DNA of 64,000 bases from Bacteroidota bacterium. Its GTDB lineage: Bacteria; Bacteroidota; Ignavibacteria; Ignavibacteriales; Ignavibacteriaceae. The number at the start of each line of letters is the position of its first letter. Within the stretch, counting starts at the first letter, position 1. Below the pieces are notes generated by a model. That model was not told the origin of the DNA, searched no databases, and was given only the letters and a program-made list of their open reading frames with translations. Both the position numbers and the translations under genes were made by a program. The stretch lies in assembly GCA_022564295.1 (NCBI GenBank), contig JADFLR010000002.1:1-64000 (forward strand). The letters run 5' to 3'. Positions 1-20,891 of the stretch are shown one piece after another.

Positions 1-2
1 GG

Positions 3-2240: not shown

Positions 2241-2266
2241 CTATTGTTAAAATATTATTTACTTAA

Positions 2267-2718: not shown

Positions 2719-2723
2719 AATAG

Positions 2724-2911
2724 GTATAACCAGCAACTCAAAGCAACCGCACTACTGGTGCGGGGCTCATTTAATTTATTTGCTTTGTTGTGGTTATGCA
2801 GCATTGTTGTTAATGTTTATTAGTTAATTAAATATTTTTATTAAATAATTATTTATATGTAAATAAATCATCGCTGTTTTGGGCGGCGCTTTAGTTGCAT
2901 TGCCGTTATAT
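2724..2911 (+). other. attC site 4
   Basis: Left arm GTATAACCAGCAACTCAAAG, right arm GGCGGCGCTTTAGTTGCATTG, end box GTTATAT. The next gene's ATG at 2910 overlaps the end box. Confidence 0.9.
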
Positions 2912-3737: not shown

Positions 3738-3970
3738 CCCGCAACTCAAAGCGACCGCGAAAACAAAGCGCTCATTTTGAGTATTAAAAAGTTTATAAAC
3801 AAGTTCAGCATTTTGTTGAGCGTAAATAAGTTAAATAATCATTGTTACAGCTCGTTGCGTGGCTTACGCAAATATACGCAACGGCTGTTAATCCGCCGCG
3901 GCGGATTGGCATTTGTGGCTAATGTGGCGTAGCAGTTTTGGGCGGCGCTTTAGTTGCAACGCCGTTATAC
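3732..3970 (+). other. attC site 5
   Basis: Left arm ATATAACCCGCAACTCAAAG overlaps the stop of the previous gene; the right arm GGCGGCGCTTTAGTTGCAACG ends in GTTATAC. The interior has paired GTTGCGT and ACGCAAC segments forming a second stem, plus a TCCGCCGCGGCGGA palindrome. Confidence 0.9.
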
Positions 3971-3987
3971 ACCATAATGGAGATAGT

Positions 3988-4686: not shown

Positions 4687-4696
4687 GAACACTGGT

Positions 4697-4954
4697 GTAT
4701 AACCCGCAACTCAAAGCGACCGCGAAAACGGTTTGGCATTTTAAGGTTTTTAGAGTTTAATAAATTCGTTCAGCATTTTGTTGGACATAACATAATAATT
4801 AATCATTGTTACAGCTCGTTGCGTGGCTGACGCTAATCCTCCAGAGGCGGACAGGTTTACGCAACGGCTGTTAATCCGCCGCGGCGGATTGGCATTTGCA
4901 TTTTAGTGCTGCATTGTAATTATGGGCGGCGCATTAGTTGCAAGGCCGTTAGGA
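4697..4954 (+). other. attC site 6
   Basis: Left arm GTATAACCCGCAACTCAAAG, right arm GGCGGCGCATTAGTTGCAAGG, end box GTTAGGA. At 258 bp this is the longest site here, enlarged by two palindrome insertions (around 4844-4857 and 4875-4889). Confidence 0.9.
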
Positions 4955-4986
4955 CGATAATATTAGTAAAATTTTAGGAGGTTAAA

Positions 4987-5667
4987 ATGAATTATTATTA
5001 TTTATTATTTACCTTCATATTGTTTTTAATTATTCTTAATGAAGGATGTAATATAATTGAATCAGAAGGTGTTTCTTCTGATTTCGAATCTGGTTACTAT
5101 TACACAACTACAAAGGGAAATATAACTTTATACAGAAGCAAATTAATCATTGCTGTAGAATTTGAAAGCAGTGTTACCGCCGAAGAAGCTAAAGGTATTA
5201 TTCATACATATAATCTTGAGCCAATAAAAATGTTTGAGAATACAGCTTATGGAGATGATTGGGAAAAACTTATTGAAGATGGTATTGTATTGATGAAATT
5301 ACCAAATGGAGCTAAGCTTGAAGATTATTTATCTTCTTTTCCAAAAGCAACAAATCAAAAATTTGGGGATATTCAAGAAATAAAATTCTGCTTACCTACT
5401 TTTGCATTCGATTCTGAAGGAGACCCTAGAAGTAGATTTATAATTAATGATGAAATAATAGTTTCAAGTAAAGTAGATAGTACCCTTACATTAAATATTC
5501 TTAATGATTATAATTTGATTTTTGTTCACAAGAATGAATGGTCGAAGTATAAATTCAAAGTATCTAGCAATTCTCCGGCAAATTCATTGTCAATTTCTAA
5601 TTCATTATATAAACATAGCGAGTTCAATTGGTCAACGCCAAATGGTTATGCTTATATCAGTCATTAA
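4987..5667 (+). CDS. Lipoprotein, unknown function
   Basis: 226 residues, with a good ribosome site (GGAGG) just upstream. The hydrophobic N-terminus ends in ILNEGC, a likely lipobox, so it is probably exported and lipid-anchored. The mature part is acidic and shows no motif I recognise; segments such as LIIAVEFESSVTAEEAKGII hint at an alpha/beta domain like those in inhibitor I9 propeptides, but this is weak. Cassette gene between attC sites 6 and 7. Confidence 0.65.
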   Translation: MNYYYLLFTFILFLIILNEGCNIIESEGVSSDFESGYYYTTTKGNITLYRSKLIIAVEFESSVTAEEAKGIIHTYNLEPIKMFENTAYGDDWEKLIEDGIVLMKLPNGAKLEDYLSSFPKATNQKFGDIQEIKFCLPTFAFDSEGDPRSRFIINDEIIVSSKVDSTLTLNILNDYNLIFVHKNEWSKYKFKVSSNSPANSLSISNSLYKHSEFNWSTPNGYAYISH

Positions 5668-5673
5668 GCATTG

Positions 5674-5920
5674 CCCTAACCAGCAACTCAAAGCGACCGC
5701 TAAATTAATGTGTTCATTTTGAGTATTATAAAGTTTATAAACAAGTTCAGCATTTTGTTGAGCGTAAATAAGTTAAATAATCATTGTTACAGCTCGTTGC
5801 GTGGCTGACGCTATCCGCCGCCGCGGACAGGTTTACGCAACGGCTGTTAATTTACTGGCATTTGTGGCTAAGGCAGCGTAGCTGTTTTGGGCGGACGCTT
5901 TAGTTGCAAGGCCGTTATAC
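5674..5920 (+). other. attC site 7
   Basis: Left arm CCCTAACCAGCAACTCAAAG, right arm GCGGACGCTTTAGTTGCAAGG, end box GTTATAC. The interior has the GTTGCGT/ACGCAAC stem and a CG-rich palindrome remnant. Confidence 0.9.
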
Positions 5921-5936
5921 AACAAAGGTGAATGAT

Positions 5937-6374
5937 ATGAAAACAAATAGTATAATTCTGAACTTTTTATTACTTTCATTTCTTCTTACAGGTTGTGACT
6001 TGCTAGATCAAAATCAAAATGTGGGCTTAAGTCTTGAACTTGAGAAATATACTTTTTTTGAAGCTGACACACTTAAGGGAGCTTTTACTGTTACAAATTT
6101 ATCGTCGAATATTATAAACTATAATTTTTCAACAAGTTGCCAATATGGACTAAAAATTCAAAGTGGAAGTGTTATATCAAGACAGTATCCTGAAGTATGT
6201 GCACAAGTTCTTACATCTTTAACATTAAAAAGTGGTGAGTCAAAACTGTATGAATTCCAACTGCTATTGGTAGATAATGACTATAATAATCTAATTAAAG
6301 GTAATTATGAAGTTGAAACGTTTTTGTTAAATAATAATTCATCAATTGTAAGTAAGTCAATTAAAATAAATTAA
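5937..6374 (+). CDS. BsuPI-like / Ig-like domain lipoprotein
   Basis: 145 residues from the ATG at 5937; the longer frame begins at a TTG inside the attC and is unlikely. The signal peptide ends in FLLTGC, a clear lipobox. The mature part (SLELEKYTFFEADTLKGAFTV, then VTNLSSN, then LKSGESKLYEFQL) has the beta-rich pattern of BsuPI-type intracellular proteinase inhibitor domains, often found in envelope lipoproteins. The domain call is moderate. Confidence 0.65.
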   Translation: MKTNSIILNFLLLSFLLTGCDLLDQNQNVGLSLELEKYTFFEADTLKGAFTVTNLSSNIINYNFSTSCQYGLKIQSGSVISRQYPEVCAQVLTSLTLKSGESKLYEFQLLLVDNDYNNLIKGNYEVETFLLNNNSSIVSKSIKIN

Positions 6375-6381
6375 GTATGTT

Positions 6382-6611
6382 GTATAACCCGCAACTCAAA
6401 GCGACCGCTAAAACAATGCGTTCATTTTGAGTATTAATAAGTTTATAAACAAGTTCAGCATTTTGTTGGGCGTAAATAAGTTAAATAATCATTGTTACAG
6501 CTCGTTGCGTGGCTGACGCTAAATTACGCAACGGCTGTTAAATTATGGGCTTTTGTATTTAAGTGCTGCATTGTAGTTATGGGCGGCGCTTTAGTTGCAA
6601 GGCCGTTATAC
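6382..6611 (+). other. attC site 8
   Basis: Left arm GTATAACCCGCAACTCAAAG, right arm GGCGGCGCTTTAGTTGCAAGG, end box GTTATAC. The interior GTTGCGT/ACGCAAC stem is intact and has no palindrome insertion, so it may show the ancestral form. Confidence 0.92.
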
Positions 6612-6624
6612 AATTTTGAGAAAT

Positions 6625-7320
6625 ATGGATATTAATGCAACTGGAGAATTTTTACTACCTGGGAAATTTCCTAAAAAAACCGAAGATGAACATTTTGAAC
6701 GTTATATGTTTGCGTCAAAAAGAGTTAAAGAAAAAAAAGTTTTGGATATTGCCTGTGGTGTTGGGTATGGCTGTGAAATATATTCTGAATCTGGAGCTAA
6801 ACATGTTGTAGGCGTTGATATATTAAAAAGCAATATTGAATATGCTGAATCTAAATATTCAGCGGCAAATATTTCCTTTATTGAAAAAAATATATATGAA
6901 ATTGATTATAAAGAAGAGTTCGATGTTATAACAAGTTTTGAAACAATAGAGCATATAGAAAATGACTCTTTAGTTTTGAAGAAATTATATAATGCTCTTA
7001 AAAATGATGGAATATTAATGATTTCAACTCCGAATAGGAAAATTACATCACCAGACACAAAATCAATAAACGATAAACCTGCAAACGAATATCACACAAG
7101 AGAATATACACTAGGTGAATTTAAGAATTTAGTAAGCAAAAATGGATTTAGGGTAAAAAATGTATTTGGTCAAAGAAATCGACTATATTTCAAATTTAAT
7201 ACTATGAATAGAGTTATAAATAAATTTTTCAAACCTGACGAAAAGGGAAATTCTAAACTCAAAAAGAATGTTTTTACTCAAGCGAGATATTATACATTGG
7301 TGTTAGAAAAAATTGTATAA
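6625..7320 (+). CDS. SAM-dependent methyltransferase, class I
   Basis: 231 residues. The SAM-binding motif I is VLDIACGVGYGCEIYSESGA, followed by VVGVDI (acidic residue of motif II) and the post-II strands FDVITSFETIEHIEN and DGILMISTPNR. This is the methyltransferase type 11/23 pattern; the substrate cannot be read from sequence. Start chosen at the ATG at 6625 rather than the TTG inside the attC. The stop codon overlaps the GTATAAC box of the next attC. Confidence 0.88.
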   Translation: MDINATGEFLLPGKFPKKTEDEHFERYMFASKRVKEKKVLDIACGVGYGCEIYSESGAKHVVGVDILKSNIEYAESKYSAANISFIEKNIYEIDYKEEFDVITSFETIEHIENDSLVLKKLYNALKNDGILMISTPNRKITSPDTKSINDKPANEYHTREYTLGEFKNLVSKNGFRVKNVFGQRNRLYFKFNTMNRVINKFFKPDEKGNSKLKKNVFTQARYYTLVLEKIV

Positions 7321-7554
7321 CCCGCAACTCAAAGCGACCGCTAAATAAATGCGTTCATTTTGAGTATTATAAGGTTTGTAAACAAGTTCTGCATTTTGTT
7401 GAGCGTAAATAAGTTAAATAATCATTGTTACAGCTCGTTGCGTGGCTGACGCAAATCTACGCAACGGCTGTTAATCCGCCGCGGCGGATTGGTGTTTGCA
7501 TCTTAGTGCCGCGTTGTAATTTTGGGCGGCGCATTAGTTGCAAAGCCGTTATGT
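7315..7554 (+). other. attC site 9
   Basis: Left arm GTATAACCCGCAACTCAAAG, right arm GGCGGCGCATTAGTTGCAAAG, end box GTTATGT. It contains the inner GTTGCGT/ACGCAAC stem and a TCCGCCGCGGCGGA palindrome at about 7476-7490. Confidence 0.92.
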
Positions 7555-7582
7555 GCCATTTGTTTTGAAAGGATAAATAATA

Positions 7583-8356
7583 ATGTCAATTCTTGTTGTA
7601 GAGATTGTCTCAGAAGGAATGATCTTTGGAGCTGATAGGAATATCACAGTTACTTATACCGACGGGCGCGCGAACCAAGGAGTACCACAACGAAAAGTTG
7701 TAAAATGGCCAAATAACAATACGCTTTTAGGTTTTGTTGGAGCAGCAACAATCAATGGCCAACCAATCGAAAATTGGCTTCAAGGTGTCCAAGGAGACTT
7801 CCAAAATCTTACGACTCTTGAGCAGATGGCGCAGGAATTACGCAATAGAGTGGAAACACAACGAAGAATTGATGAAGGGACTAGACCTGCCGATGCAATG
7901 ATTATTCATCTTGGCGGATTTGAACAACGAAATGGAAATTGGATGCCTTATGTCTGGCACATCACAAATGCACATCGACTTGGCCAGTTTAGTTATCTTG
8001 ACATCGATAAGAATTACACTTGCACCGAACATATGTATGGACCATTAAAAGACATTGATCCAACAGAAGTACGAAAGCAATTAGGTGTTCAGGCTAAGCA
8101 ATTCAAACCTTTTTGGTTTCATCAAGGACTTGACCTTTTAACTTTTAATGTCTTAGAATCTTCAATCAAATCTTCTTTCAAATTACTATGTGAACAACAT
8201 CCCGATCATAGTATCCCAACCACGCTTGAAGAGTGGTCTAAGCATGTCAAAATGCAGATTCTTATGTATGGTGCATATTATGAAGCTTTTAGACCAGTTG
8301 GTCAAAGGTACGTCGGTGGCGGAGCTGATATTGAGTGTATTGCTTGGCCAATATAA
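7583..8356 (+). CDS. Possible proteasome-like Ntn-hydrolase-fold protein
   Basis: 257 residues. The N-terminus (MSILVVEIVSEGMIFGADRN, then KVVKWPNNNTLLGFVGAA) has the strand-turn-strand look of proteasome/HslV-type Ntn-hydrolase subunits, where a strand is followed by G-x-x-x-A-D-x-R. There is no obvious N-terminal Thr, Ser or Cys nucleophile at position 1 or 2 apart from Ser2, so activity is uncertain. The rest of the protein is not recognised. The start follows GAAAGGATAAATAATA. Cassette gene; function unknown. Confidence 0.55.
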   Translation: MSILVVEIVSEGMIFGADRNITVTYTDGRANQGVPQRKVVKWPNNNTLLGFVGAATINGQPIENWLQGVQGDFQNLTTLEQMAQELRNRVETQRRIDEGTRPADAMIIHLGGFEQRNGNWMPYVWHITNAHRLGQFSYLDIDKNYTCTEHMYGPLKDIDPTEVRKQLGVQAKQFKPFWFHQGLDLLTFNVLESSIKSSFKLLCEQHPDHSIPTTLEEWSKHVKMQILMYGAYYEAFRPVGQRYVGGGADIECIAWPI

Positions 8357-8370
8357 GAATTGCAAATGGC

Positions 8371-8583
8371 ACCTAACCAGCGGTTCAAGCTGACCGCGTT
8401 TTCGCTGCCGCGATTTTGATTTTATTTAGTTAGTAGTACCAATTTAATATTGTTGTTTAAGTTTTGATAAAAATGTTCCCCTGCCGAAATTCGTGGCGGG
8501 AACTTTTCAATAAATTATTGGCAGTTGCAAAAAGTTTGTCTTCGCAGTTCGGGGCGGACAGCTTAACCACAACGCCGTTATAC
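8371..8583 (+). other. attC site 10 (second family)
   Basis: Left arm ACCTAACCAGCGGTTCAAGC, right arm GGCGGACAGCTTAACCACAAC, end box GTTATAC. The interior (ATTATTGGCAGTTGCAAAAAG) matches the attC family also seen at 13717-13865, 15893-16040, 30720-30941 and 34275-34433. Confidence 0.85.
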
Positions 8584-8599
8584 TTATTAGGAATGTGAA

Positions 8600-9049
8600 A
8601 TGGAAGAATCAACATACAGAATATTTAATATAATACTTAAATTTATAGGAGTTTGTGGACTAGTTATAGCTAGTCTATTTGCGCTATGGAAATACACAGA
8701 TAATGCTGAAAAACAGTTTAAGAAACCTTATTGGGAAAATAAGTTGAAAATTTATCTTGAAGTGGCTGATGTTATCTCATCTATTGCGGAACTTAATGAG
8801 GGTCCAGAACGGGAAAAAACAATTCAGAAATATTGGACATTATATTTTGGAAAACTAGCAGTAGTTGAGGATCCCGTTGTGGAAATGTTAATGATAGGAT
8901 TTTCTAACTGCTTAGATGGTACATCAGAATGTAATAAATGTGAGTTGCGAAAGCGTGCACTTCAAACTTCTCATGCAATGCGTGAGGCCCTAGGTAAATC
9001 ATGGGATATGGATTTAGAAGAACTAGAAGGATATTATCATAAAAATTAA
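8600..9049 (+). CDS. Small membrane protein, unknown function
   Basis: 149 residues with one N-terminal transmembrane helix (about 8-28, IFNIILKFIGVCGLVIASLF) and a soluble helical domain. Late in the protein is a cysteine cluster (NCLDGTSECNKCEL), which might bind a metal. No family recognised. It shares a cassette with the next gene: only 49 bases and no attC separate them, so the two are probably co-transcribed and functionally linked. Confidence 0.6.
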   Translation: MEESTYRIFNIILKFIGVCGLVIASLFALWKYTDNAEKQFKKPYWENKLKIYLEVADVISSIAELNEGPEREKTIQKYWTLYFGKLAVVEDPVVEMLMIGFSNCLDGTSECNKCELRKRALQTSHAMREALGKSWDMDLEELEGYYHKN

Positions 9050-9098
9050 AAATAAAGGAACATATATCGTTTATTGAAACGATTATACTTGCAAAAAT

Positions 9099-9938
9099 AT
9101 GAGTGCAGAAGAAGAAAAAATTGAACAAGAAATAGCATCGAATTTAAAGTTACCTGATATCAACCTACTAAATAAGCAACCTAAATTTAAGGTTGATATT
9201 CGATATCAGAAAACTATAACCAAAAAGTATATAAAATCATTTTTATATAAACTGAATACTTTCCAATATTTCAATGATCTAATTGAACTATTTAACGAAC
9301 TAAAATATTCGCACCTGATGGTATTATGTAATTATCGGTTTTCATCAGAATTTAATCCAGATTTGAAAGAAAGCTATAATTGGAAGTTGAAATATCATTT
9401 CGAAAATTCCGTATATAGATACTATTCTTTCTGGGAATTAATTGGTCGATTTTTAAATTCATATTTTGACCTTAGACTAGAATTTGATAAAAACGACTAT
9501 CATAAAGAAGGAAATTTTTTCTTCGGTAGAGATGTATATCCTAAGATTCACACTAAATATTACCACAATTATTTGGCAGAATTATTTGAAATTTACGAGT
9601 CGTCGAAAGAAATATTTGATTATCGAATAGAAAAAACTCATAAAAGTAATCCTTCTCTCGAAGGTGTAGACTTATTTGATTCAGTCAGAACAATTATGGA
9701 GGACCGAACATTAACTGAATTACGTATTCGTAATAATTATTCTGCAGAGAAATTGAAAAAATTATCGGAAGAAATTTATGAAAATATTGTTCACACTTTA
9801 GAAATGCTAGGAATATTTTATGAGGTTGGTCACGATGAAGTTGAATTTCTTGATAAAGAGGATCCTTATAAATCAGTAATAACAATACCTACAAAAGAAG
9901 AAATTATTAAAATCAACCAAATTATTAATAAAAGCTAA
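9099..9938 (+). CDS. HEPN-like helical protein, unknown function
   Basis: 279 residues, soluble and predicted mostly helical, rich in aromatic residues. The segment YRYYSFWELIGRFLNSYFDL and the following long helices recall helical HEPN-type proteins such as Cthe_2314-like families, but I see no clear catalytic RxxxxH motif, so this is a weak suggestion. It is the second gene of a two-gene cassette with the preceding membrane protein. Confidence 0.55.
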   Translation: MSAEEEKIEQEIASNLKLPDINLLNKQPKFKVDIRYQKTITKKYIKSFLYKLNTFQYFNDLIELFNELKYSHLMVLCNYRFSSEFNPDLKESYNWKLKYHFENSVYRYYSFWELIGRFLNSYFDLRLEFDKNDYHKEGNFFFGRDVYPKIHTKYYHNYLAELFEIYESSKEIFDYRIEKTHKSNPSLEGVDLFDSVRTIMEDRTLTELRIRNNYSAEKLKKLSEEIYENIVHTLEMLGIFYEVGHDEVEFLDKEDPYKSVITIPTKEEIIKINQIINKS

Positions 9939-9943
9939 AGCAA

Positions 9944-10172
9944 GTATAACAAGCAACTCAAAGCGACCGCAAACCTAATGCGATCATTTTGAGTATTATT
10001 AAGTTTGTAAACAAGTTCAGCATTTTGTTGAGCATAGATAAGTTAAATAATCATTGTTACAGCTCGTTGCGTGGCTGACGCTAATTTACGCAACGGCTGT
10101 TAAATTATTGGCATTTGTGGCTAATGTGGCGTAGCAGTTTTGGGCGGCGCTTTAGTTGCAAGGCCGTTATAT
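9944..10172 (+). other. attC site 11
   Basis: Left arm GTATAACAAGCAACTCAAAG, right arm GGCGGCGCTTTAGTTGCAAGG, end box GTTATAT; the inner GTTGCGT/ACGCAAC stem is present. Confidence 0.92.
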
Positions 10173-11169: not shown

Positions 11170-12174
11170 ATGAAAAAAATAAAGATATTTGTTGCCTCGC
11201 CGGGTGACGTTTCATCAGAACGCGATGATCTTAAAAAGGTTGTTGACGAAGTAAATACAACAATTGCAAGTTACAAAAATTGTATATTAGAGCTCGTACG
11301 ATGGGAAACACACTGTAGCCCGCGAATGGGGCGTCCACAGGGTGTTATCAATGACCAGATAGGAAAATATGATATTTTCGTAGGAATAATGTGGAAACGG
11401 TTTGGTTCTCCAACTGGAGTTGCGGAATCTGGGACCGAAGAAGAGTTTCGGATTGCTTATCGATGTTGGGAGGAAAATCAGGATTTGCCGATACTATTCT
11501 ATTTTTCTCAGGAGCCATATAATCTCATAAGCTCAGAGGATGTGAATCAGTGTGGCAAAGTAATAGACTTCCGCTCTGAACTTCAATCAAAGGGTTTAGT
11601 TTGGGAGTATCGGGATGCAGCTGATTTTAAGGATGTAGTGCGACCACACCTGGCTAGAACAATTTTAGAGCTTCCTGAAGAAGGTAAGGCTGATCCCTTT
11701 GTCGCCGAGAGTAATAGCAAGCCTGCGTCGCCTACAAAAGTATTTATTGCATCTTCAGCCGAAGGGTTATCCGTAGCTAGAGCAGTTAAAGAAGAATTGG
11801 AAAAAGCCGGTATTCAGACATTTTCTTGGGATAATAGTACTTTCAATATTGGCGGGCCATTCGTTGGAGCACTGGATGACGTACTTGCAAATTGTACTGC
11901 TGCAATAATGGTGCTTACTCCCGATGATGCTGTTACCACAAGAGGCCAAACTCATCCTGTTGCAAGAGAGAACCTTGTATATGAAACAGGTTTGTTTCAT
12001 GGGAGACTTGGCCGAAATCGCACCTTCATTCTTGCGACTGAAGATTTAAAGCTGCCATCTGATCTGGCGGGCGTTTTGTATTTTCGCTACGATCCAGCTC
12101 GGCTAGCTCCTGTTATTTCACAAATAAGTAGACAGATTCATTCGTTAGAGAAAACCGAAGATGACGAAACATAA
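11170..12174 (+). CDS. DUF4062-TIR fusion, likely antiphage NAD-consuming effector
   Basis: 334 residues in two domains. Residues 1-165 match DUF4062: KIFVASPGDVSSERDDLKKV, then WETHCSPRMG and DIFVGIMWKRFGSPTG. Residues 190-325 match the TIR-like domain of CBASS/Pycsar effectors (PF10137 type): KVFIASSAEGLSVARAVKEE, then NCTAAIMVLTPDD and NLVYETGLFHGRLGR; Glu272 is in the position of the catalytic glutamate of that family. Such TIR domains cleave NAD+ when activated during phage infection. No cyclase gene is next to it, so it is either a stand-alone sensor-effector or relies on a partner elsewhere. Activation by DUF4062 is inference. Confidence 0.85.
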   Translation: MKKIKIFVASPGDVSSERDDLKKVVDEVNTTIASYKNCILELVRWETHCSPRMGRPQGVINDQIGKYDIFVGIMWKRFGSPTGVAESGTEEEFRIAYRCWEENQDLPILFYFSQEPYNLISSEDVNQCGKVIDFRSELQSKGLVWEYRDAADFKDVVRPHLARTILELPEEGKADPFVAESNSKPASPTKVFIASSAEGLSVARAVKEELEKAGIQTFSWDNSTFNIGGPFVGALDDVLANCTAAIMVLTPDDAVTTRGQTHPVARENLVYETGLFHGRLGRNRTFILATEDLKLPSDLAGVLYFRYDPARLAPVISQISRQIHSLEKTEDDET

Positions 12175-12228: not shown

Positions 12229-12269
12229 GGCGAGTGTGTTCAACTAAAAGCGTGAAAGGGATCACAAAA

Positions 12270-13230
12270 ATGAAAAATGCATTTAACCCATTTAATCCGT
12301 TCAAACTTATAAGGTTTGTTGTCTTTGCACTAATATTAGCTTCAGTGACAGCCTGTTCAGAAGGAGAAGATACGTCAACAACACGTGAAATCCCTTCGAA
12401 TAACCAAGAGCAGAAAAGATCTCCTGTTTTCTACCATAACCCAGCTTGGTCTCCCGATGGGACGCGGATCGCGTTCTACTCGAACCGGGACGGTAACTTT
12501 GAAATCTACACGATACAGCCTGATGGTGATGATCTAAAGAGGCTCTCGCACCTTGGCGCCGGGGAAATGTCCTGGTCCCCCGATGGGACGCGGATTGCCT
12601 TTGGCTCAAGCCGAGACGGAGAATCGGCGATCTATGTCATGAATGCTGACGGAACGAATCCGATTCGTCTGAGCGACGCAGGCCGTGCGGGTGGCCCGGT
12701 ATGGTCGCCCGACGGCACAAAGATTGCATTCGAGGGCCCGCATCAACGGCAACAGGGACCTCTTCGTGATGAACACCGATGGTTCAGCCACGACGCACTT
12801 GACGGAGCATGAAGCCAATGACTTCCGCCCCACCTGGTCACCAGACGGGACTCAGATTGCCTTTACATCAAAACGCGAAGGAAGCTACGATTTATTCGTG
12901 ATGAATGCTGACGGTTCGAACAAAAACCAACTCACTGACACAGAGGTACACGAAACAAATCCAGCGTGGTCGCCAGATGGCGGAAAACTGCTTTTTACAA
13001 GGGTCGAGGTGGTTGATGACGAGGAAAAGGGGCTCGGGCTCTATGTTTTGGACTTAGCCACCAAGCAAGAGACTCGGCTAACAGCTGATTCGGAACGAGA
13101 GGCCTGCTGGTCGCCGGATGGGAGTAAGATAGCATACGTAACAGATGCTGTTGACGGCAAGGACTTTTCCCTTTACACAATGGATGCAGATGGCTCGAAC
13201 AATGTGCGCTTCATGCCTCCGCCGCGTTGA
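12270..13230 (+). pseudogene. TolB-like beta-propeller lipoprotein, frameshifted
   Basis: The frame from the ATG at 12270 encodes a signal peptide with lipobox ASVTAC and three PD40/WD40-like repeats (WSPDGTRIAFYSNRDGNFEI, WSPDGTKIAF), then shifts near 12730-12745. The repeats go on in the +1 frame (INGNRDLFVMNTDGSATTHL, WSPDGTQIAF) to the stop at 13230. Joined, it would be about 320 residues, a secreted or periplasmic beta-propeller like the C-terminal part of TolB, without an obvious Tol-Pal context. One extra base explains the break; it could be real decay or an error. GC-rich compared with its neighbours, so likely acquired. Confidence 0.75.
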
Positions 13231-13270: not shown

Positions 13271-13394
13271 GGCTAACCAGACGCTGCAAGCGACGATGGG
13301 CGTGCCGATCTTGCTTCGATTGAGCGTCGCGTATTCGTTGCTTCATTGAATGATGATGCCCTCAGCCAATCGCGCTTGAGCTTGGCTGTTATAA
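13271..13394 (+). other. attC site 14
   Basis: Left arm GGCTAACCAGACGCTGCAAG with CGACG; right arm CGCGCTTGAGCTTGGCT, end box GTTATAA. GCTgCAAGCGaCG in the left arm pairs with the right arm apart from two extra bases, the usual attC pattern. Confidence 0.75.
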
Positions 13395-13716
13395 CACTTT
13401 TCAAAAATAATTAAATACTATTATATCCTCCCTTATCTTACATAAAACAATTTCCAACATCCCATAAAATACCCGGCAGTTTAAAAAACTGTTTTTTCTT
13501 TAATTAGTTTGATATTTATTTTGTTCATTTGAAGCATTCATTGTTAAATGTTCCATTCGAATTGATTATAAGTTTTATTATCTATTCTTTTGTCCACTTT
13601 TATTTTATAAATTTAAATAGAATTATTTACAAATTTAATTTGGTGTCTGCTATTATATATTATAAGCGAATTAACTCCATTGCAATAATTGGTAACTATT
13701 TACCGCGACGGAGCGG
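13389..13716 (+). repeat. Copy 1 of the glycosyltransferase flank (terminator, presumed promoter, first codons)
   Basis: About 330 bp that closely match 18321-18650, the region in front of and inside the GT4 gene at 18576. The match starts at the attC cut point (TTATAACACTTTTC) and ends near codon 25 of the gene (IAIIGNYLPR, then GCGGC), where the sequence switches to the right half of an attC. It lies directly upstream of the substrate-binding-protein cassette and has the same direction. The small frame across it is not a gene. Confidence 0.8.
13477..13498 (+). terminator. Rho-independent terminator, copy 1
   Basis: CAGTTTAAAAAACTG followed by six T. Copies at 15654 and 18409 share it. Confidence 0.65.
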
Positions 13717-13865
13717 CTTTTGTGGTGTTTTTAAGTTTGGTTAACAAAGTAAAATTGTAGTTTAAGTTTGTACAGTTAAATAAAGATTTTATAAATTATT
13801 GGTAGTAGCTTTCGAATTCGTTATTGTTGTTCGGTACAGACGGCTTATTAGCCACGCCGTTAGGC
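13717..13865 (+). other. attC right half joined to copy 1
   Basis: Interior ATTATTGGTAGTAGCTTTCG and right arm GGTACAGACGGCTTATTAGCC, end box GTTAGGC, as in the second attC family. The matching left arm is missing because the glycosyltransferase fragment occupies its place. Confidence 0.75.
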
Positions 13866-13918
13866 ACTTCAAATAACTCTGGAAAGAACAATTAAAAAAC
13901 ACAAGGTAAAGGTGAAAG

Positions 13919-15163
13919 ATGAGAAATTCTCCAAACTCAATTATGAAAATATCTGCATTCTGTTTGTTAATTATTTTCTATACAGTTTCCTGTGATCAGG
14001 ATAATAACACAGTAGGCGCTGATACCAATGGACATTTAATTAATATTGGATTTTTAAGCGCTAAATCCGGAGGGGCTTCTCATTTCGGGTTACCCGCATT
14101 TTATGCCTATCAATACGCAACAAATGCTTTGGCTGAATATTATGGTGAAAATGTATCAATAAATTCAACGATAATGGATACGCAAAGCGATAAAGATATT
14201 TGCCTTGAAGAATTAATGTCATTAAAACAACAGGGAATTAATCTTGTAATTGGACCTTTTACAAGTTCCGAACTTTCAAATGTCAGGGAATTTGCAAAAG
14301 AAAACAGTATGATATTAATTAGTCCGAGTAGTGTTGCCAGAAGCATTTCTCTTTCAAATGATTACATTTTCAGGATGGCTTCCGATGACAGTTATCAAAC
14401 AGAAGCTATGCTTCAATTACTAAACCGGGATAATATTAAGAGTATTATTTTGATATGGCGGGATGATGTATGGGGCAATGATTTAGCAGGCTTGGTTAAA
14501 TCAGGTTTCAATAATATTGGTAGGGTTGTATTTGACAGCTTAAAATATGATCCGTCAACTGAAGATTATACTTCCATTATCGGGGAATTAGTTACTAAAT
14601 CCGATCAAATGCTAAACAATTACACAGCTTCGGAATGTGCAATATATTTACTCTCATTTAATGAAGCGGAAAGTATTCTCGAAAAGGCTTCCGTTAGCAT
14701 CTCACAACTCGGAGATATAAAATGGTATGGATCATCAGCAGTATCACAATCTTCTCCATTTTTATCAAATTTAACCGCGGCTGCATTTGCAATGCAGGTA
14801 GGATTTCTCTGCCCTATCCATGGACTGGATGACAATGCCCAGGACAAATACACTGCTATTAATTCTTATGTCGAAAGTCAATCGGGACTGAGTGCCAATA
14901 TTTATTCATTTAATACTTATGATGCGCTGTGGCTGGCAGTTGCCGCTAGTTTAATCAGTGATATAAATAATCCTGAAGAATTTGCCGCTTCATTAAGAAA
15001 AACCGGGAGTAGTTATTTCGGTGCTTCCGGTAGAGTTCTTTTTAACGAAGCAGGAGATAGAATCCCTAAGACTTATGATTTCTTTGGAGTTGAGAATGCG
15101 AATGGTGAATACAAATGGATTAGAAAAGCAGTTTTTAATTTTGGGACAGGGATTGTTCACTGA
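13919..15163 (+). CDS. LivJ-type substrate-binding lipoprotein
   Basis: 414 residues. A signal peptide ends in FYTVSC (lipobox). The mature part is a type I periplasmic binding fold: INIGFLSAKSGGASHFGLPA, LVIGPFTSSELSNVREFAKE, LISPSSVARSISLSNDYIFR and IKSIILIWRDDVWGNDLAGL fit leucine/amide-binding proteins of ABC uptake systems or receptor domains. No permease or ATPase gene is near, so it may work alone or as a sensor. A cassette gene closed by the attC at 15442-15571. The duplicated flank upstream could supply its promoter. The start follows AAGGTGAAAG. Confidence 0.82.
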   Translation: MRNSPNSIMKISAFCLLIIFYTVSCDQDNNTVGADTNGHLINIGFLSAKSGGASHFGLPAFYAYQYATNALAEYYGENVSINSTIMDTQSDKDICLEELMSLKQQGINLVIGPFTSSELSNVREFAKENSMILISPSSVARSISLSNDYIFRMASDDSYQTEAMLQLLNRDNIKSIILIWRDDVWGNDLAGLVKSGFNNIGRVVFDSLKYDPSTEDYTSIIGELVTKSDQMLNNYTASECAIYLLSFNEAESILEKASVSISQLGDIKWYGSSAVSQSSPFLSNLTAAAFAMQVGFLCPIHGLDDNAQDKYTAINSYVESQSGLSANIYSFNTYDALWLAVAASLISDINNPEEFAASLRKTGSSYFGASGRVLFNEAGDRIPKTYDFFGVENANGEYKWIRKAVFNFGTGIVH

Positions 15164-15441
15164 TAATGAACAAATTCTTTCTAAGACGACATCAAAAGAG
15201 AAGGGATTTTACTTTACGATTCGAAACGTTTTGAATTGGCGGAAGCGCGAGAGTTATCACCAAGTGAATATCAAAACAAAATCACCGAATATTTCGATCA
15301 CTCGCCAGGAATTGGAATGGCTGGCCGAAAGAGTTGAAATACTCCAGGAATTAACGAAAAAAATCTGTAAGAAAAAGATAGAAAGTTTTACCCAAAGCGC
15401 AGTTTTAAAAAGTTGTAATTTACAGTTGGCTGCACGGGATC
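15164..15441. other. Gene remnant, no intact frame
   Basis: Between the binding-protein gene and the next attC. One frame reads YDSKRFELAEARELSPSEYQ and on to a stop near 15335, looking like a fragment of a real protein that I cannot name. The 154-residue frame overlapping 15021-15485 runs through the binding-protein gene in another phase and is not supported. Confidence 0.4.
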
Positions 15442-15571
15442 GCCTAACTTTTGTTCCAGCCGAACCCGCCATAGATGGTGCTTGAAGAAAGGTAGTTGCG
15501 CTACTCAAGTTTATTGGTAAAATCAAGTTTAGTGTGTAGATATGGCGGGACGGCTGAACATCGCGTTATAT
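15442..15571 (+). other. attC site 15
   Basis: Left arm GCCTAACTTTTGTTCCAGCC with GAACCCGCCATA; right arm TATGGCGGGACGGCTGAACA, end box GTTATAT. The arms pair over about 20 bases with single extra bases. Confidence 0.85.
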
Positions 15572-15892
15572 CACTTTTCAAAAATAATTAAATATTATAA
15601 TATCCTCCCTTATCTTAAATAAAACAATTTCCAATATCCCATAAAATACCCGGCAGTTTTAAAAAACTGTTTTTTCTTTAATTAGTTTGATATTTATTTT
15701 GTTCATTTGAAGCGTTCATTGTTAGATGTTCTATTCGAATTGATTTTAACTATTATAAACTTTTTTTTTTGCTTTTATTTTATAAATTTAAATAGAATTA
15801 TTTACAAATTTAATTTGGTGTCTGCTATTAAATATTATAAGCGAATTAACTCCATTGCAATAATTGGTAACTATTTACCGCGACGGAGCGGC
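15566..15892 (+). repeat. Copy 2 of the glycosyltransferase flank
   Basis: About 330 bp nearly the same as copy 1 and close to 18321-18650. It begins at the attC cut point (TTATATCACTTTTC) and switches to attC sequence at the same GCGGC. It sits directly upstream of the methyltransferase cassette. Confidence 0.8.
15654..15676 (+). terminator. Rho-independent terminator, copy 2
   Basis: CAGTTTTAAAAAACTG followed by six T. Confidence 0.65.
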
Positions 15893-16040
15893 TTTTGTGG
15901 TATTTTTAAGTTTGGTTAACAAAGTAAAATTGTAGTTTAAGTTTGTACAGTTAAATAAAGATTTTATAAATTATTGGTAGTAGCTTTCGAATTCGTTATT
16001 GTTGTTCGGTACAGACGGCTTATTAGCCACGCCGTTAGAC
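15893..16040 (+). other. attC right half joined to copy 2
   Basis: Nearly identical to 13717-13865, ending in GTTAGAC; the left arm is missing. Confidence 0.75.
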
Positions 16041-16060
16041 AGCAAACAGGAGGAAACAAA

Positions 16061-16669
16061 ATGTCAATCAAGAACCTACTTTTTGATCTCTGGTATAGAT
16101 TCGGTAAACCACCTTGGATCATCGACCAGGCGCAGCCTGACCTCATAGCAGCGGTAGAGAAGGGGGAAGTTTGCGGACCTACGGTTCTAGATGTCGGATG
16201 CGGTGCCGGTAACAATGCCATTTATCTTGCCAGTCGCGGCTTCGATGTTACTGGAGTAGATGTTTCCGCCAAAGCCATTAGTATTGCCAAACAAAAAGCT
16301 AGCGAGGCGGAAGTCGATGTAACGTTTATAACGCTCGATGCTTTAAAAATCGGAACTCTTGCCAAGAGATTCGACACTATAATCGACTTCGGGCTTTTCC
16401 ACAACCTTAAGGGAGACCGTGAGCGCTATGTTCGCGCCCTTAGCGCTGTTTGTGCAAGCAAAGGTCAATTTCTAATGCTGTGTTTCAGTGACCAAGCAGG
16501 AGAATATGGCGTTTACCCCCATTTCTACCCTAAACCAATGAGCCAAGATGAGATCCGTGCCTCCTTCTCAGAGGGATGGCAAATTGAGTGGATTCGTTTA
16601 GGGGGAATTCAATCGAACATGAGCGAAAACTATTCGTCGTGGCTAACCGCTATGACATCCAACAAGTAA
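16061..16669 (+). CDS. SAM-dependent methyltransferase, TPMT/TehB-like
   Basis: 202 residues from the ATG at 16061, after a strong ribosome site (CAGGAGG). Motif I is VLDVGCGAGNNAIYLASRGF, followed by VTGVDVS and FDTIIDFGLFHNL. Together with the short N-terminal IDQAQPDL segment this resembles thiopurine- or tellurite-type small-molecule methyltransferases; the substrate is unknown. Composition is more GC-rich than most cassettes, and its attC is the short proteobacterial type, so recent transfer is likely. Confidence 0.85.
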   Translation: MSIKNLLFDLWYRFGKPPWIIDQAQPDLIAAVEKGEVCGPTVLDVGCGAGNNAIYLASRGFDVTGVDVSAKAISIAKQKASEAEVDVTFITLDALKIGTLAKRFDTIIDFGLFHNLKGDRERYVRALSAVCASKGQFLMLCFSDQAGEYGVYPHFYPKPMSQDEIRASFSEGWQIEWIRLGGIQSNMSENYSSWLTAMTSNK

Positions 16670-16688
16670 GACATATGCTGGAAAAGAT

Positions 16689-16759
16689 GCCCAACAAGGT
16701 GTTGCACCGGACGCCTTTTCCGCTAAGCTCCAAAGACGCCGGTGAATTTAACGTTATGT
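16689..16759 (+). other. attC site 16 (71 bp, proteobacterial style)
   Basis: GCCCAACAAGGTGTTGCACC with GGACGCC; right arm GACGCCGGTGAATTTAAC, end box GTTATGT. It is very similar in layout to short attC sites of proteobacterial integrons. Confidence 0.88.
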
Positions 16760-16797
16760 GCTGATTTCTAATCTAGAGTAAAACCAATTACATCGTT

Positions 16798-17352
16798 ATG
16801 GAATATGAAAGTTTAAGAAAAAGAGATATATCAATTAATTTTTGGGCAGCTAATTTTTACGCAATAATTTCTGTTCTCCCAATCCTTATCATTTTATACT
16901 TTTTATATTTATCTATTTGGGAAAAACCAGTTATCTCATTTAAATATCCATATTGGCTAATTTATTTAATTGGTGTGGTTATTCATGAATTAATACACGG
17001 ATTTTTTGCAATGAAATTTAGTAAACAAGGAATGAAAAGTGTCAAGTTTGGAATTTCTTGGAAGTCATTAACTCCTTATTGCCATTGCAAAGAACCTCTA
17101 ACTGTAAGAGATTATCGAATTGTCTTATTAGCACCTCTTGTTATTTTAGGAATTGTTCCAACAATTATTGGACTAATAATTGGGCATAATGGTATTTATG
17201 GTTTTGGGTTACTATTTATTTTAGCAGCTGGAGGTGATTTAATAATATTTTGGAAATTAAGAAATGAGAACAAAAATACATTAGCATTGGATAGTCCTGA
17301 TAAGTGTGGTTGTGTAATATATGAACCTGAAGAATCAAGAGATGATAATTAA
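16798..17352 (+). CDS. DUF3267-type membrane zincin
   Basis: 184 residues with about four transmembrane segments. The motif HELIHG (HExxH zinc site) at about residues 63-68 lies in a membrane helix (LIGVVIHELIHGFFAMKF), and a second region (LAPLVILGIVPTI) matches DUF3267 putative membrane metalloproteases. The tail has a small Cys pair (DKCGC). The target is unknown. It is AT-rich and lies between attC sites 16 and 17. Confidence 0.8.
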   Translation: MEYESLRKRDISINFWAANFYAIISVLPILIILYFLYLSIWEKPVISFKYPYWLIYLIGVVIHELIHGFFAMKFSKQGMKSVKFGISWKSLTPYCHCKEPLTVRDYRIVLLAPLVILGIVPTIIGLIIGHNGIYGFGLLFILAAGGDLIIFWKLRNENKNTLALDSPDKCGCVIYEPEESRDDN

Positions 17353-17361
17353 TAAAAACGC

Positions 17362-17514
17362 ACATAACCCGTAACGCAAATCCGACCACAGTTTTGGTAC
17401 AGTTTTGTTAGTGTTTTTGAGTTTTTGAAAATCGCAAAATATTGTTTTAGACGTGATAAGTAAGGGCGGCGCCTGTCTACCGAAAGGCAGGCTTTAGTTG
17501 TAATACCGTTTTAC
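17362..17514 (+). other. attC site 17 with palindrome insertion
   Basis: Left arm ACATAACCCGTAACGCAAAT with CCGACC; right arm GGCGGCG and TTTAGTTGTAATACC, end box GTTTTAC. The right arm is split by the palindrome CCTGTCTACCGAAAGGCAGG at 17472-17491. Confidence 0.8.
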
Positions 17515-17605
17515 GGCAAACTAAAAGAAAAAATATGTTGAAATTTTTGTATTGCGATAGACTATAATAAAGGTTCTATTTTGGTCAAACATTAAAGGAT
17601 ACCAA

Positions 17606-17908
17606 ATGAAATATAGTGAATCAATAAAATCTATTAGTTATTTAAAAACTCATGCATCTGAAGTTGTGAGGGACGTAGTTAAAAATCAAAAAACTTTAAT
17701 AATTACCCATAATGGCGAAGCTAAAGTTATACTTCAGGATGTTAAACTGTATGAAAAAACTCAAGAAAGTATTGCACTATTAAAGATGCTTGCGTTGAGT
17801 GGAAAGGAAATTAAATTAGGTAAATATAAACCACTTCAATCATCCCTTAAAAATGTTCAGAAAAAAATAAATGAATTCAAACGGGAACAAAATGAAGTAC
17901 AAAGTTAA
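17606..17908 (+). CDS. Phd/YefM-family antitoxin
   Basis: 100 residues. The N-terminal part (SISYLKTHASEVVRDVVKNQ, then LIITHNGEAKVILQDV) is the DNA-binding and dimer fold of Phd/YefM antitoxins. It overlaps the toxin gene by 17 bases, typical for a co-translated type II toxin-antitoxin pair and probably autorepressed. The C-terminal tail is likely what binds the toxin. Confidence 0.85.
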   Translation: MKYSESIKSISYLKTHASEVVRDVVKNQKTLIITHNGEAKVILQDVKLYEKTQESIALLKMLALSGKEIKLGKYKPLQSSLKNVQKKINEFKREQNEVQS

Positions 17909-18218
17909 TATTGTAAAATCAGCAGAAGATGATTTATTAGAAATTTATAAATATGTCTATTATAACGATTGTGAAGAAAATGCTGATAAAATATATTCAA
18001 AATTAATTGAAAAAGTAACATCTCCCCAGGAATTTCCAAAACGTGGTCACACCCTGCCAGAATTAAGCTCGTTAGGAATTGAAGATTTCTTAGAAATTAA
18101 TTTTAAACCTTATAGAATCATATATCAGATAATCGCTAAAGTAGTTTTTGTACATTGTGTTTTAGATGGCAGAAAAGATATGGAAAAATTATTACACGAA
18201 AGATTGATTCGTGAATAA
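17892..18218 (+). CDS. ParE/RelE-family toxin
   Basis: 108 residues from the ATG at 17892. The pattern KVNIVKSAEDDLLEIYKYVY, LIEKVTSPQEFPKRGHTLPE and FLEINFKPYRIIYQI fits RelE/ParE toxins, with the usual terminal VFVHCVLDGRKDMEKLL segment. RelE members cut mRNA on the ribosome and ParE members block gyrase; which applies cannot be read here. It is the last cassette before the chromosome, a place where it can stabilise the array. Confidence 0.87.
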   Translation: MKYKVNIVKSAEDDLLEIYKYVYYNDCEENADKIYSKLIEKVTSPQEFPKRGHTLPELSSLGIEDFLEINFKPYRIIYQIIAKVVFVHCVLDGRKDMEKLLHERLIRE

Positions 18219-18228
18219 TACAAATGTT

Positions 18229-18326
18229 TTATAACATCTATAATAAGTAAACATTCCCGCCTTATTCTGATAAATCATGATTTGGCTGGCAAGATGGGCG
18301 GCGGGTTAGGTACAATTATGTTATAA
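18229..18326 (+). other. attC site 18, last of the first array
   Basis: Left part TTATAACATCTATAATAAGT with CATTCCCGCC; right arm GGCGGCGGGTTAGGTACAAT, end box GTTATAA. Pairing is weaker than in others. The end box runs straight into the GT4 flank. Confidence 0.6.
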
Positions 18327-18575
18327 CACTTTTCGAAAATACTTAAATATCACTATATCCTCCCTTTTCTTAAATAAAACAATTTCCCACATCCCATAAA
18401 ATACCTGGCAGTTTTAAAAAACTGTTTTTTTAGAATTAGTCTGATATTTAATTTATTCGTTTAAAACGTCCCATAGTAAAATGTTCTATTCGAATTGATT
18501 TTAACTTTTATAAACTCTTCTTTTGTCCACTTTTATTTTATAAATTTGAATAGAATTATTTACAAATTTAATTTG
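18321..18575 (+). promoter_or_regulatory. Glycosyltransferase upstream region (source of the two copies)
   Basis: The segment begins at the attC cut point and holds a terminator (18409-18432) and an AT-rich stretch that should contain the operon promoter. Its conservation in three copies is the only direct evidence that it matters. No exact -33/-7 motif was assigned. Confidence 0.5.
18409..18432 (+). terminator. Rho-independent terminator, original copy
   Basis: CAGTTTTAAAAAACTG followed by a run of T, upstream of the glycosyltransferase operon. Confidence 0.65.
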
Positions 18576-20891
18576 GTGTCTGCTATTAAATATTATAAGC
18601 GCATTAACTCCATTGCAATAATTGGCAACTATTTACCGCGACAGTGCGGCATTGCAACATTTACTACCGATCTTTTTGAAGCCCTTTCATCAGAGAAACC
18701 AGATATTAAGTGTTGGGCAGTTGTTATGAATGACAGACCCGATGGATATTCATATCCGGAAACAGTTCGGTTTGAGATTGATCAGAATAAACTTAGCGAC
18801 TACAAGGTAGCATCAGAGTTTCTTAATGTAAACCAGATTGATATTGTAAGTGTGCAGCACGAATATGGCATTTACGGCGGGGAGGCTGGCAGCCATATTC
18901 TTAAACTCCTTGGAAATCTTCGTATGCCGGTCGTAACAACACTTCATACGGTTCTGAAAGACCCGGCGCCTGAATATCTTGAAGTTATGCAAAAGCTGTC
19001 AGAACTTTCTGACAAATTAATAGTGATGAGCCATAAAGCTTCTGATTTTCTAAAAGATATTTATGGTGTTCCTGAGAAAAAAATTAGTCTTATTCATCAC
19101 GGCATACCCGATATGTCTTTTATTGATCCCAACTTTTACAAAGATAAGTTCGATGTGGAAGGCAAAAAAGTTATTCTCACTTTTGGGCTGCTTTCAGCAA
19201 ATAAAGGCATTGAAAATGTGCTGAAGGCGCTCCCATTCGTTATCCAAAAACACCCTGATGTTATCTATATCATTTTGGGAGCCACGCATCCAAATGTTTT
19301 GAAGGCGCATGGCGAGGAATATCGTATTAGTCTGCAGCAACTTGTTCGAAAACTCAACATCGAAGATAATGTTATTTTTAAAAACAGGTTTGTGGAGTTA
19401 GAAGAATTGTGTGAGTATTTGGGCACTGCAGATATATATATAACCCCGTATCTGGATGAAGCTCAAATTACCTCGGGAACTCTCATTTATGCCATGGGAA
19501 CAGGTAAAGCCATCATTTCAACCCCATACTGGTATGCGACCGAGATGCTTGCTGATGATCGGGGAGTAATTGTTCCATTTAAAAATCCTGATGCTATTGC
19601 AAAAGTAATCATCGAATTGCTTGACAACGATGTAAAACGCAATACTATTCGTAAAAATGCATATGCCTTCTGTCGACAGGCTATCTGGAAGGAAGTAGCA
19701 CGAAAATATCTGGAGGTTTTCAGCGAGGTTCAACTCCATCGCTCCCGGAAGCCTCGTCCCCGGTACTCATATATTGAAAACATCAAATCTATAACAAATT
19801 TCGAGCTCCCGGAGATGAAACTTGATCATCTGAAATCCCTTACCGATGATACCGGCATTTTACAGCATGCAATTTATACAATCCCGGATCGGTTTCATGG
19901 TTATTGCACCGATGATAACGCCAGAGCACTTATGGTTGTTGCCATAGCTCATAAATATATGTTCACAGACAGTACTTATTTCGATTCCCTAAGCGAACTG
20001 TATCTCAGTTTTCTACAATATGCCTTTAATAACGAAAATAAGAGATTTCGTAATTTCATGTCCTACTCAAGGCAGTGGACTGAGGAGGTTGGATCCGAGG
20101 ATTCTAATGGCAGAGCACTATGGGCCCTTGGTAAGGTAGTTGCTCATCTCGACAATCCCGGACAGATAGCAATGAGCATGACACTATTTAATAAAGCTGT
20201 AAAAGCTGTTGAACATTTTAAATCACCCCGGTCCATTGCTTTTGCCCTGGTAGGTATTCATGCCTACCTGCAAAAATTTTCGGGTGACAGTGAAGTACGC
20301 AGGATCAGAGAAATTGCTGCTGACAGACTTTTCGATCAATTCAAGAGTAATGCTACAGAAAACTGGCACTGGCTTGAAAACAGTTTAAATTATGCTAATG
20401 GCAAGCTTCCACACGCCTTACTTCTATCAGGTCAATGGATGCAGCGCAATGATATGACCGATATGGGGCTCAAGTCGCTAAAGTGGCTGCTCTCCATCCA
20501 GACTGAAAAGGAGCACTTTGTACCAATCGGAAATGCCGGATGGTATAAAAAAGGCGGTACCAAAGCCCGATTCGATCAGCAACCAATCGAAGCTAATGCT
20601 ATGATTGAAGCTTGTGTAGAAGCTTTTAACGTTACCAGGGATAAAATGTGGATTGACAATGCCGTAATGTGCTTTAACTGGTTTCTCGGACTCAACGACC
20701 TGAATATGTCGCTATATGATCCTAAGACTGGCGGATGCCGCGATGGCTTAATGGCAGACGGAATAAACCAGAATGAGGGTGCCGAGTCCTCACTCGCCTG
20801 GCTGCTTTCACTTATGACTTTACATAAACTATATGCCGACGAGATTTTAAAACATTCATCATCTCCCTCAATTGATACAGTATTGAGTTAA
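18576..20891 (+). CDS. GT4 glycosyltransferase with C-terminal helical-barrel-like domain
   Basis: About 771 residues. The first 400 are a GT-B, family 4 transferase: SIAIIGNYLPRQCGIATFTT (donor/acceptor loop), VSVQHEYGIYGGEAGSHI, VILTFGLLSANKGIENVLKA and ITPYLDEAQITSGTLIYAMG. From about residue 420 comes a domain (IPDRFHGYCTDDNARALMVV, WHWLENSLNYANGKLPHALL) like an (alpha/alpha)6 barrel. No ATG fits the start; GTG at 18576 is chosen, with TTG at 18573 the alternative. It leads an operon with the next three genes. Likely role: making or trimming mannose-containing glycans, inferred from the GH130 partners. Confidence 0.85.
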   Translation: MSAIKYYKRINSIAIIGNYLPRQCGIATFTTDLFEALSSEKPDIKCWAVVMNDRPDGYSYPETVRFEIDQNKLSDYKVASEFLNVNQIDIVSVQHEYGIYGGEAGSHILKLLGNLRMPVVTTLHTVLKDPAPEYLEVMQKLSELSDKLIVMSHKASDFLKDIYGVPEKKISLIHHGIPDMSFIDPNFYKDKFDVEGKKVILTFGLLSANKGIENVLKALPFVIQKHPDVIYIILGATHPNVLKAHGEEYRISLQQLVRKLNIEDNVIFKNRFVELEELCEYLGTADIYITPYLDEAQITSGTLIYAMGTGKAIISTPYWYATEMLADDRGVIVPFKNPDAIAKVIIELLDNDVKRNTIRKNAYAFCRQAIWKEVARKYLEVFSEVQLHRSRKPRPRYSYIENIKSITNFELPEMKLDHLKSLTDDTGILQHAIYTIPDRFHGYCTDDNARALMVVAIAHKYMFTDSTYFDSLSELYLSFLQYAFNNENKRFRNFMSYSRQWTEEVGSEDSNGRALWALGKVVAHLDNPGQIAMSMTLFNKAVKAVEHFKSPRSIAFALVGIHAYLQKFSGDSEVRRIREIAADRLFDQFKSNATENWHWLENSLNYANGKLPHALLLSGQWMQRNDMTDMGLKSLKWLLSIQTEKEHFVPIGNAGWYKKGGTKARFDQQPIEANAMIEACVEAFNVTRDKMWIDNAVMCFNWFLGLNDLNMSLYDPKTGGCRDGLMADGINQNEGAESSLAWLLSLMTLHKLYADEILKHSSSPSIDTVLS

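Follow-up and report, generated by a model that had tools for sequence, protein, structure and literature searches.

A repeated gene-less integron cassette that may have been made from chromosomal DNA at the edge of its array

How does chromosomal DNA lying beyond the end of an integron array come to be found inside that array, bounded there as a cassette? The question is raised by a stretch of 64,000 nucleotides (nt), hereafter the window, that forms the start of contig JADFLR010000002.1 (C31) in the 4.07-Mb assembly GCA_022564295.1 (G000), from a member of the Ignavibacteriaceae (Bacteroidota). An array of cassettes bounded by attC sites fills the first 18.3 kb of the window. Beyond it comes a gene for a GT4 glycosyltransferase, which starts with GTG at 18576, followed by another GT4 gene and a pair of GH130 genes. 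The 330 nt immediately 3′ of the last attC (18321-18650, copy c3) contain a terminator-like hairpin, an upstream region and the first 25 codons of the GT4 gene. As noticed in an original prediction made from the sequence alone, this flank at the distal end of the array recurs twice within it, at 13389-13717 (c1) and 15566-15892 (c2); when aligned, c1 and c2 were each 89% identical to c3. On balance we consider it probable that a short-homology join turned the DNA at the array edge into a gene-less cassette, which later spread at attC cut points.

The borders of the copies carry most of the evidence. All three begin at an exact attC cut point (13388/13389, 15565/15566 and 18320/18321), which for c1 and c2 is the G|TTRRRY cut of the preceding attC. 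In pairwise comparisons, the 40 nt 5′ of the cut are unrelated (5-9/40 identical) and the 40 nt 3′ of it match at 34-37 positions. The alignment bore out this part of the prediction as well as the 3′ end that it had assigned to c1 and c2, both of which depart from GT4 at the sequence GCGGC (13713-13717 and 15888-15892; GT4 counterpart, 18646-18650). Unlike the 5′ ends, however, this 3′ end is a join inside an attC arm. Past GCGGC, the right part of an attC is common to c1 and c2 (145/146 nt) up to cuts at 13859/13860 and 16034/16035; 3′ of these cuts only 18 of 40 nt are identical, and different cassettes begin exactly there. The three segments first outlined were confirmed, with the GCGGC of c1 ending at 13717, but the repeated unit is a whole cassette of 471 nt (c1) or 469 nt (c2) with a cut point at each end. 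The unit may have moved as a whole: its two copies differ in their neighbours and keep exact borders. Each copy lies, as predicted, directly 5′ of a cargo gene in the same direction. The features of the region are as follows.

13271-13388, plus strand: attC of the TolB-like cassette, directly 5′ of copy 1; arm pairing -15.0 kcal/mol for a cut at 13388
13389-13717, plus strand: first copy (c1) of the GT4 flank, running from its cut point as far as GCGGC; 89% identical to 18321-18650
13477-13497, plus strand: terminator-like hairpin and T run in copy 1, as read from the sequence
13643-13744, plus strand: 33-codon remnant frame from the GT4 start GTG, with its stop inside the attC part
13713-13859, plus strand: attC right part joined to GT4 codons (hybrid attC lacking a normal left arm)
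13919-15163, plus strand: cargo gene 3′ of copy 1, for a receptor or periplasmic ligand-binding protein (PF01094, PF13458)
15445-15565, plus strand: attC directly 5′ of copy 2; arm pairing -21.3 kcal/mol
15566-15892, plus strand: copy 2 (c2) of the GT4 flank; 89% identical to 18321-18650
15818-15919, plus strand: 33-codon remnant frame in copy 2
15888-16034, plus strand: attC right part after copy 2, the same as that of copy 1 (145/146 nt identical)
16061-16669, plus strand: cargo gene 3′ of copy 2, for a methyltransferase-domain protein (domain test on the longer open reading frame (ORF) 15974-16666)
17606-18218, plus strand: last cassette, with Phd/YefM antitoxin and ParE toxin genes
18229-18320, plus strand: final attC of the array, with a right arm that extends in full up to the cut at 18320/18321 and weak arm pairing (sequence and fold)
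18321-18650, plus strand: the original (c3), chromosomal flank and first 25 GT4 codons, also 5′ of GT4 in relatives G001 (positions 72-342) and G002 (whole)
18576-20891, plus strand: gene for the GT4 glycosyltransferase, opening an operon-like run (second GT4, two GH130 genes)

A search of the assembly with the flank returned these three places and no more, at E 1.6e-119 or better. Within the flank, c1 differs from c2 at 19 of 325 positions and from c3 at 33 of 327, and c2 from c3 at 39 of 326, with 5 or 6 gap columns in each pair; the copies are therefore not simple assembly duplicates. The longest same-strand frames in c1 and c2, 71 and 70 codons from TTG, lie around the 210-bp limit of the definition used here for gene-less cassettes, namely no annotated gene and all ORFs ≤210 bp, as given in the available text of PMC11014356. 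The original prediction had the flank captured twice. Since c1 and c2 have both the GT4/attC junction and the attC part in common, and form a clade with 99% bootstrap support, their sequences point to one capture, long ago, followed by copying.

Where did the captured DNA come from? Among the 59 genomes searched with the flank (own included), 15 matched it at all at E 0.001. Apart from those in the own genome, long matches were confined to two relatives of the same genus, G001 and the sister species G002; in the others they were ≤59 nt. In G002, an array is followed by the full flank and the GT4 operon, with the same TTATAAC border; in G001, flank positions 72-342 lie 5′ of GT4, beside a gene whose product we take to be metallopeptidase-like. 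Read from the GT4 GTG, the frame runs for 771 codons at c3, but a stop ends it after 33 codons in c1 and c2. Since the flank accompanies GT4 in both relatives and the frame is open at c3 only, the chromosomal flank is the source. No array was seen in G001 in the 1.6 kb read before the flank, and one motif-like site was found in 5.6 kb. We considered G001 as an empty site and could not confirm it: the relatives that its upstream gene has in four other genomes of the genus reach only 46-47% identity, the GT4 match covers codons 3-237 only, and loss of an array is possible.

The age of the event is less sharply defined. In the tree, c3, G002 and the stem of c1 and c2 form a near trichotomy, c1 and c2 grouping weakly with G002 (64%), and G002 differs from c1 at 31 of 325 positions and from c3 at 33 of 327. 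Nine sites separate c1 and c2 from c3 and G002; at five of them G001 agrees with c1 and c2, a pattern in favour of pairing c3 with G002. Conflicting signal comes from at least six sites at which c1, c2 and G002 share a letter that c3 and G001 lack. The capture would be roughly as old as the divergence of the two species, unless a close species was the source of the cassette.

The 3′ join lies in GCGGC, not at an integrase cut point. Of 80 genomes of the family, 17 (counting the own genome) contain relatives of the attC part at E 1e-5. Outside the own genome 18 loci were fetched, and 13 of these were aligned; one of the 13 was cut by a contig end, leaving 12 readable. GCGGC stands at the join position in 9 of these (TGCGGCATT in 4), TAAC is visible in 10, and ACCCGACCGC is found in 8, with variants in the rest; at the same position the GT4 gene reads ACCGCGACAGTGCGGCATTG. 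Because GCGGC is common to GT4 and to 9/12 attC relatives, the join lies in a short inner-arm sequence of attC that GT4 also has. The resulting hybrid has attC sequence from the inner stem to R′, and GT4 codons replace R″-L″.

These anatomical details suggest a simple scheme. The TTATAAC at the border between array and chromosome would be the far half of the site entered by the first cassette. Because the last attC already provides a left border, a single extra join would be enough to make the neighbouring DNA a cassette. That join would be illegitimate, between GCGGC in GT4 and the inner arm of an attC, and could arise by replication slippage or by exchange between sister chromosomes. Its product would be a 470-nt gene-less cassette made of the flank, the first GT4 codons and the attC right part. 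The unit would then have been copied, with neighbours swapped at exact cut points. That the neighbours changed precisely at the hybrid's R′ cut argues for integrase action there, so its R′ core may have been used at least once, either through weak attC activity or perhaps, as the site lacks a normal left arm, as an attG-like target. Placed before cargo genes, the cassette may stop upstream transcription and restart it from the GT4 promoter. Whether all this amounts to a record of cassette genesis by "edge capture", with a transcription-reset cassette as its product and half an attC sufficient for re-sorting at cut points, is a more tentative proposition, to which we give slightly less than even chances.

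Several observations weigh against this scheme, beginning with the join itself: the nearest attC relative, in G004 (80% identical), reads TGTGGC at that position instead of GCGGC. The hybrid has only the right arm of an attC where a cassette should have paired R″-L″/L′-R′ arms. It is an abnormal attC, so the manner in which the unit moved is doubtful. Its arms pair at -10.9 kcal/mol (z about -1.5), as against -15.3 to -22.9 kcal/mol (z -2.1 to -6.7) for nine array sites that were hand-picked as clear, a contrast that for its part favours the scheme. In shuffles of upstream DNA, 3% of 200 attained -10.9; when the hybrid left arm itself was shuffled 2000 times, 8.2% of the products paired equally well, so that the residual pairing is not significant, and weak pairing is not specific to the hybrid (-7.5 at the last attC, cut at 18320, and -6.4 at site 1391). 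Folding of the entire hybrid gave no attC-like hairpin. The repeat list contains no whole cassettes in duplicate, the expected trace of tandem duplication. Integrase and promoter raise further difficulties. No integrase gene above the family cut-off is present in the assembly. Sigma-70-like matches across 13300-18720 are at chance level (28, vs 23.4 +/- 5.0 in shuffles), and the copies contain no plus-strand promoter-like match, except one across the left border of c1 (13382-13411). A TAnnTTTG box, which we take to be the Bacteroidota promoter consensus, is present in c3 and G002; TAAATTTA stands instead in c1, c2 and G001. Finally, none of 14 other arrays of the order has a second copy of its distal flank, taken as the 600 nt after the last detected site (see below). 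A separate idea, that the change from GGCAAC to GGTAAC in c1 and c2 restored an R″ core, was dropped: that base alone leaves the pairing energy unchanged.

The alternatives have to account for the same borders. The integrase itself could have carried out recombination between the last attC and a secondary, attG-like site within GT4, the excised circle being reinserted in the array. The left borders, as exact cut points, are in keeping with this, and a partial R″ core (GGCAAC in GT4, GGTAAC in c1 and c2) stands just before the join; yet the join falls at GCGGC, 16-21 nt past the AAC core and not at the GTT/AAC cut that marks attG-type events, and GT4 offers no source for the attC part that follows. 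The position of the breakpoint has already weakened this explanation, which we consider highly improbable. Homologous recombination between flank copies on sister chromosomes could also have duplicated the unit within the array, the integrase only swapping neighbours. Three 330-nt direct repeats in 5.3 kb are good substrates, and the apparent weakness of the hybrid attC would favour such a course. However, c1 and c2 share an end that falls exactly on a cut point, their neighbours differ on either side, and leftover duplicated cassettes are missing from the repeat list; we judge this unlikely.

A cassette made in a sister species and received by horizontal transfer would explain why c1 and c2 are about as distant from c3 as G002 is (33, 39 and 33 of about 326 positions), and it agrees with their weak grouping with G002. 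It is doubtful in view of the site conflict, in which 5/9 informative sites speak for c3 with G002, and of the hybrid junction, which was not found outside the own assembly, viral contigs (pattern scan) and plasmids (search) included. The copies might, lastly, be functionless, dead half-site cassettes persisting by chance. The lack of a promoter-like match on the plus strand inside them, the half attC and the broken or missing integrase gene all suit this possibility, which is a serious one even if we do not favour it; both copies nevertheless stand directly 5′ of a same-direction cargo gene, and the substitutions between them are skewed. Over the whole cassette, c1 and c2 differ by 20 substitutions, of which the first 222 nt contain 18 and the last 251 nt contain 2 (Fisher p 1e-4, with a border set after inspection and 9/18 within 22 nt). 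Such a skew could reflect constraint on the stretch from promoter to attC, or else conversion.

What might the short-homology product do for its neighbours? Each copy includes a terminator-like inverted repeat with a T run and the DNA 5′ of the GT4 start, and is followed by the cargo gene. In the alignment, the inverted repeat and T run are kept in c1, c2, c3 and G001, and in G002 with a G-T pair; the terminator scan did not list the hairpin of the copies. Position and orientation are compatible with the possibility, raised by the original prediction, that the copies supply cargo genes with a terminator and a promoter.

As for the integrase, a 49-codon N-terminal piece of an integron integrase was found at G000:C22:146253-146375, with cassette-like DNA following to the contig end. 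It is likely the remnant of the integrase of this integron. Because no integrase exceeds the cut-off and only this 49-codon start is left, cassette re-sorting has probably stopped in this genome. In a sedentary chromosomal integron, intI would adjoin attI and the array; in sister G002 the start of intI is at the head of the contig that carries its array. In other genera of the family (G066:C1, G008:C111, G069:C134), attC-like sites lie 3′ of intI in the same direction, a layout known from Treponema; the G002 layout is divergent, so both occur within one family.

Is this locus alone in its kind? At site 1391 of the window, an attC right part and the start of the next cassette (1295-1416) are 92% identical over 122 nt to an intact attC of contig C35; the left arm is absent and the preceding DNA belongs to a gene at 753-1244. 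As a second attC of this array with a right part only, site 1391 favours the proposed scheme; it represents either another gene joined into an attC interior or an attC that lost its left arm. The last cassette of the G002 array (L044:3577-5346, G002:C45) opens, from a cut point onwards, with roughly 78 nt of the flank (82% identical, the terminator part) and contains a 523-codon gene with only an attC right arm directly 3′ of its stop codon; its best left arm scores -8.9, at background level. A G005 relative of the 523-codon gene (58% identical) has one internal stop, and no attC was seen by eye in the flanks read.

The survey for generality covered 99 stretches beside integrase genes of the order, often the two sides of one gene, and used a crude detector with a motif from this attC family. 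At least two motif-type sites were found in 14/99 stretches, the arrays referred to above. The same comparison finds the distal-flank copy in G002 and in the window, where the last site was set by hand. The detector missed real sites, among them the last attC of the window, many arrays run off their contigs, and 2 of the 14 hold just 112 and 1002 nt beyond the last site, making the survey weak negative evidence on generality. Repeated cassette starts in L213 and L223 were not counted as captures, as they reach contig ends.

In the available text of the sources, promoter-bearing, ORF-less cassettes are known from Vibrio and oral Treponema (PMC11014356, PMC6557892). Like these, the present units are short, have no real gene and are placed 5′ of other cassettes. 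The cassettes in those accounts drive downstream cassettes and were tested with their own attC, whereas here a promoter role is suggested by position and orientation, and some are thought there to derive from decayed gene cassettes. The array-edge chromosomal body, the terminator-like hairpin and the hybrid attC end set the present units apart from what those accounts describe. Cassettes of unusual form, whose attC is truncated or replaced, are also described in the accessible portions of PMC12901181 and PMC4670013, together with fused cassettes of class 1 integrons; these resemble ours in having an incomplete or hybrid attC; there an existing cassette lost its attC or had it replaced, while here a chromosomal gene start takes the place of the missing arm. 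On cassette genesis, the text available of PMC4792948 states that "no reliable model is yet available", that of PMC5371416 also treats the question as unsolved, and the corresponding part of PMC12901181 still names cassette origin as a gap in 2026.

A report of array-edge chromosomal DNA turned into a cassette was not found in the literature searched (titles and starts of abstracts among the papers listed, most subscription papers lying outside). Promoter cassettes are known; their origin from chromosomal DNA at an array edge did not appear there and may be new to that extent. The locus looks like a natural trace of a cassette made from ordinary chromosomal DNA, and since the sequence shows both its ends and its chromosomal source to the base, it provides a testable one-step model of genesis. 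If the model is true, promoter cassettes gain an origin in the promoter of a neighbouring operon.

Two other processes invite comparison. Insertion of cassettes into chromosomes at attG sites has reportedly been described by Loot et al. in 2024. There too the integrase acts on a site that is not a full attC; unlike it, the event proposed here runs in reverse, from chromosomal DNA to cassette, and its 3′ join is not at a core site. The group IIC-attC intron model of cassette formation, said to have been put forward by Leon and Roy in 2009, is likewise meant to account for the acquisition of an attC by a gene; it needs an intron, and no Rfam family at all matched at the gathering score in the 64-kb window.

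The remainder of the array provided some minor observations. Several long attC sites within 2022-10127 have variable loop inserts, including the palindrome CCGCCGCGGCGG (e.g. near 2160, 3893, 4876 and 7476). A cassette gene at 11170-12174 encodes DUF4062 and a CAP12/Pycsar-type TIR domain and matches defence effector models. The TolB-like (PD40) cassette gene at 12234-13230 is split over two overlapping frames, being probably frameshifted, and its G+C content, judged by eye, is above that of its neighbours. Lastly, the end of contig C16 (G000:C16:20970-21096) is 99.2% identical to window positions 1-127 over 127 nt, making C16 either the upstream neighbour of the window or the carrier of a repeated cassette.

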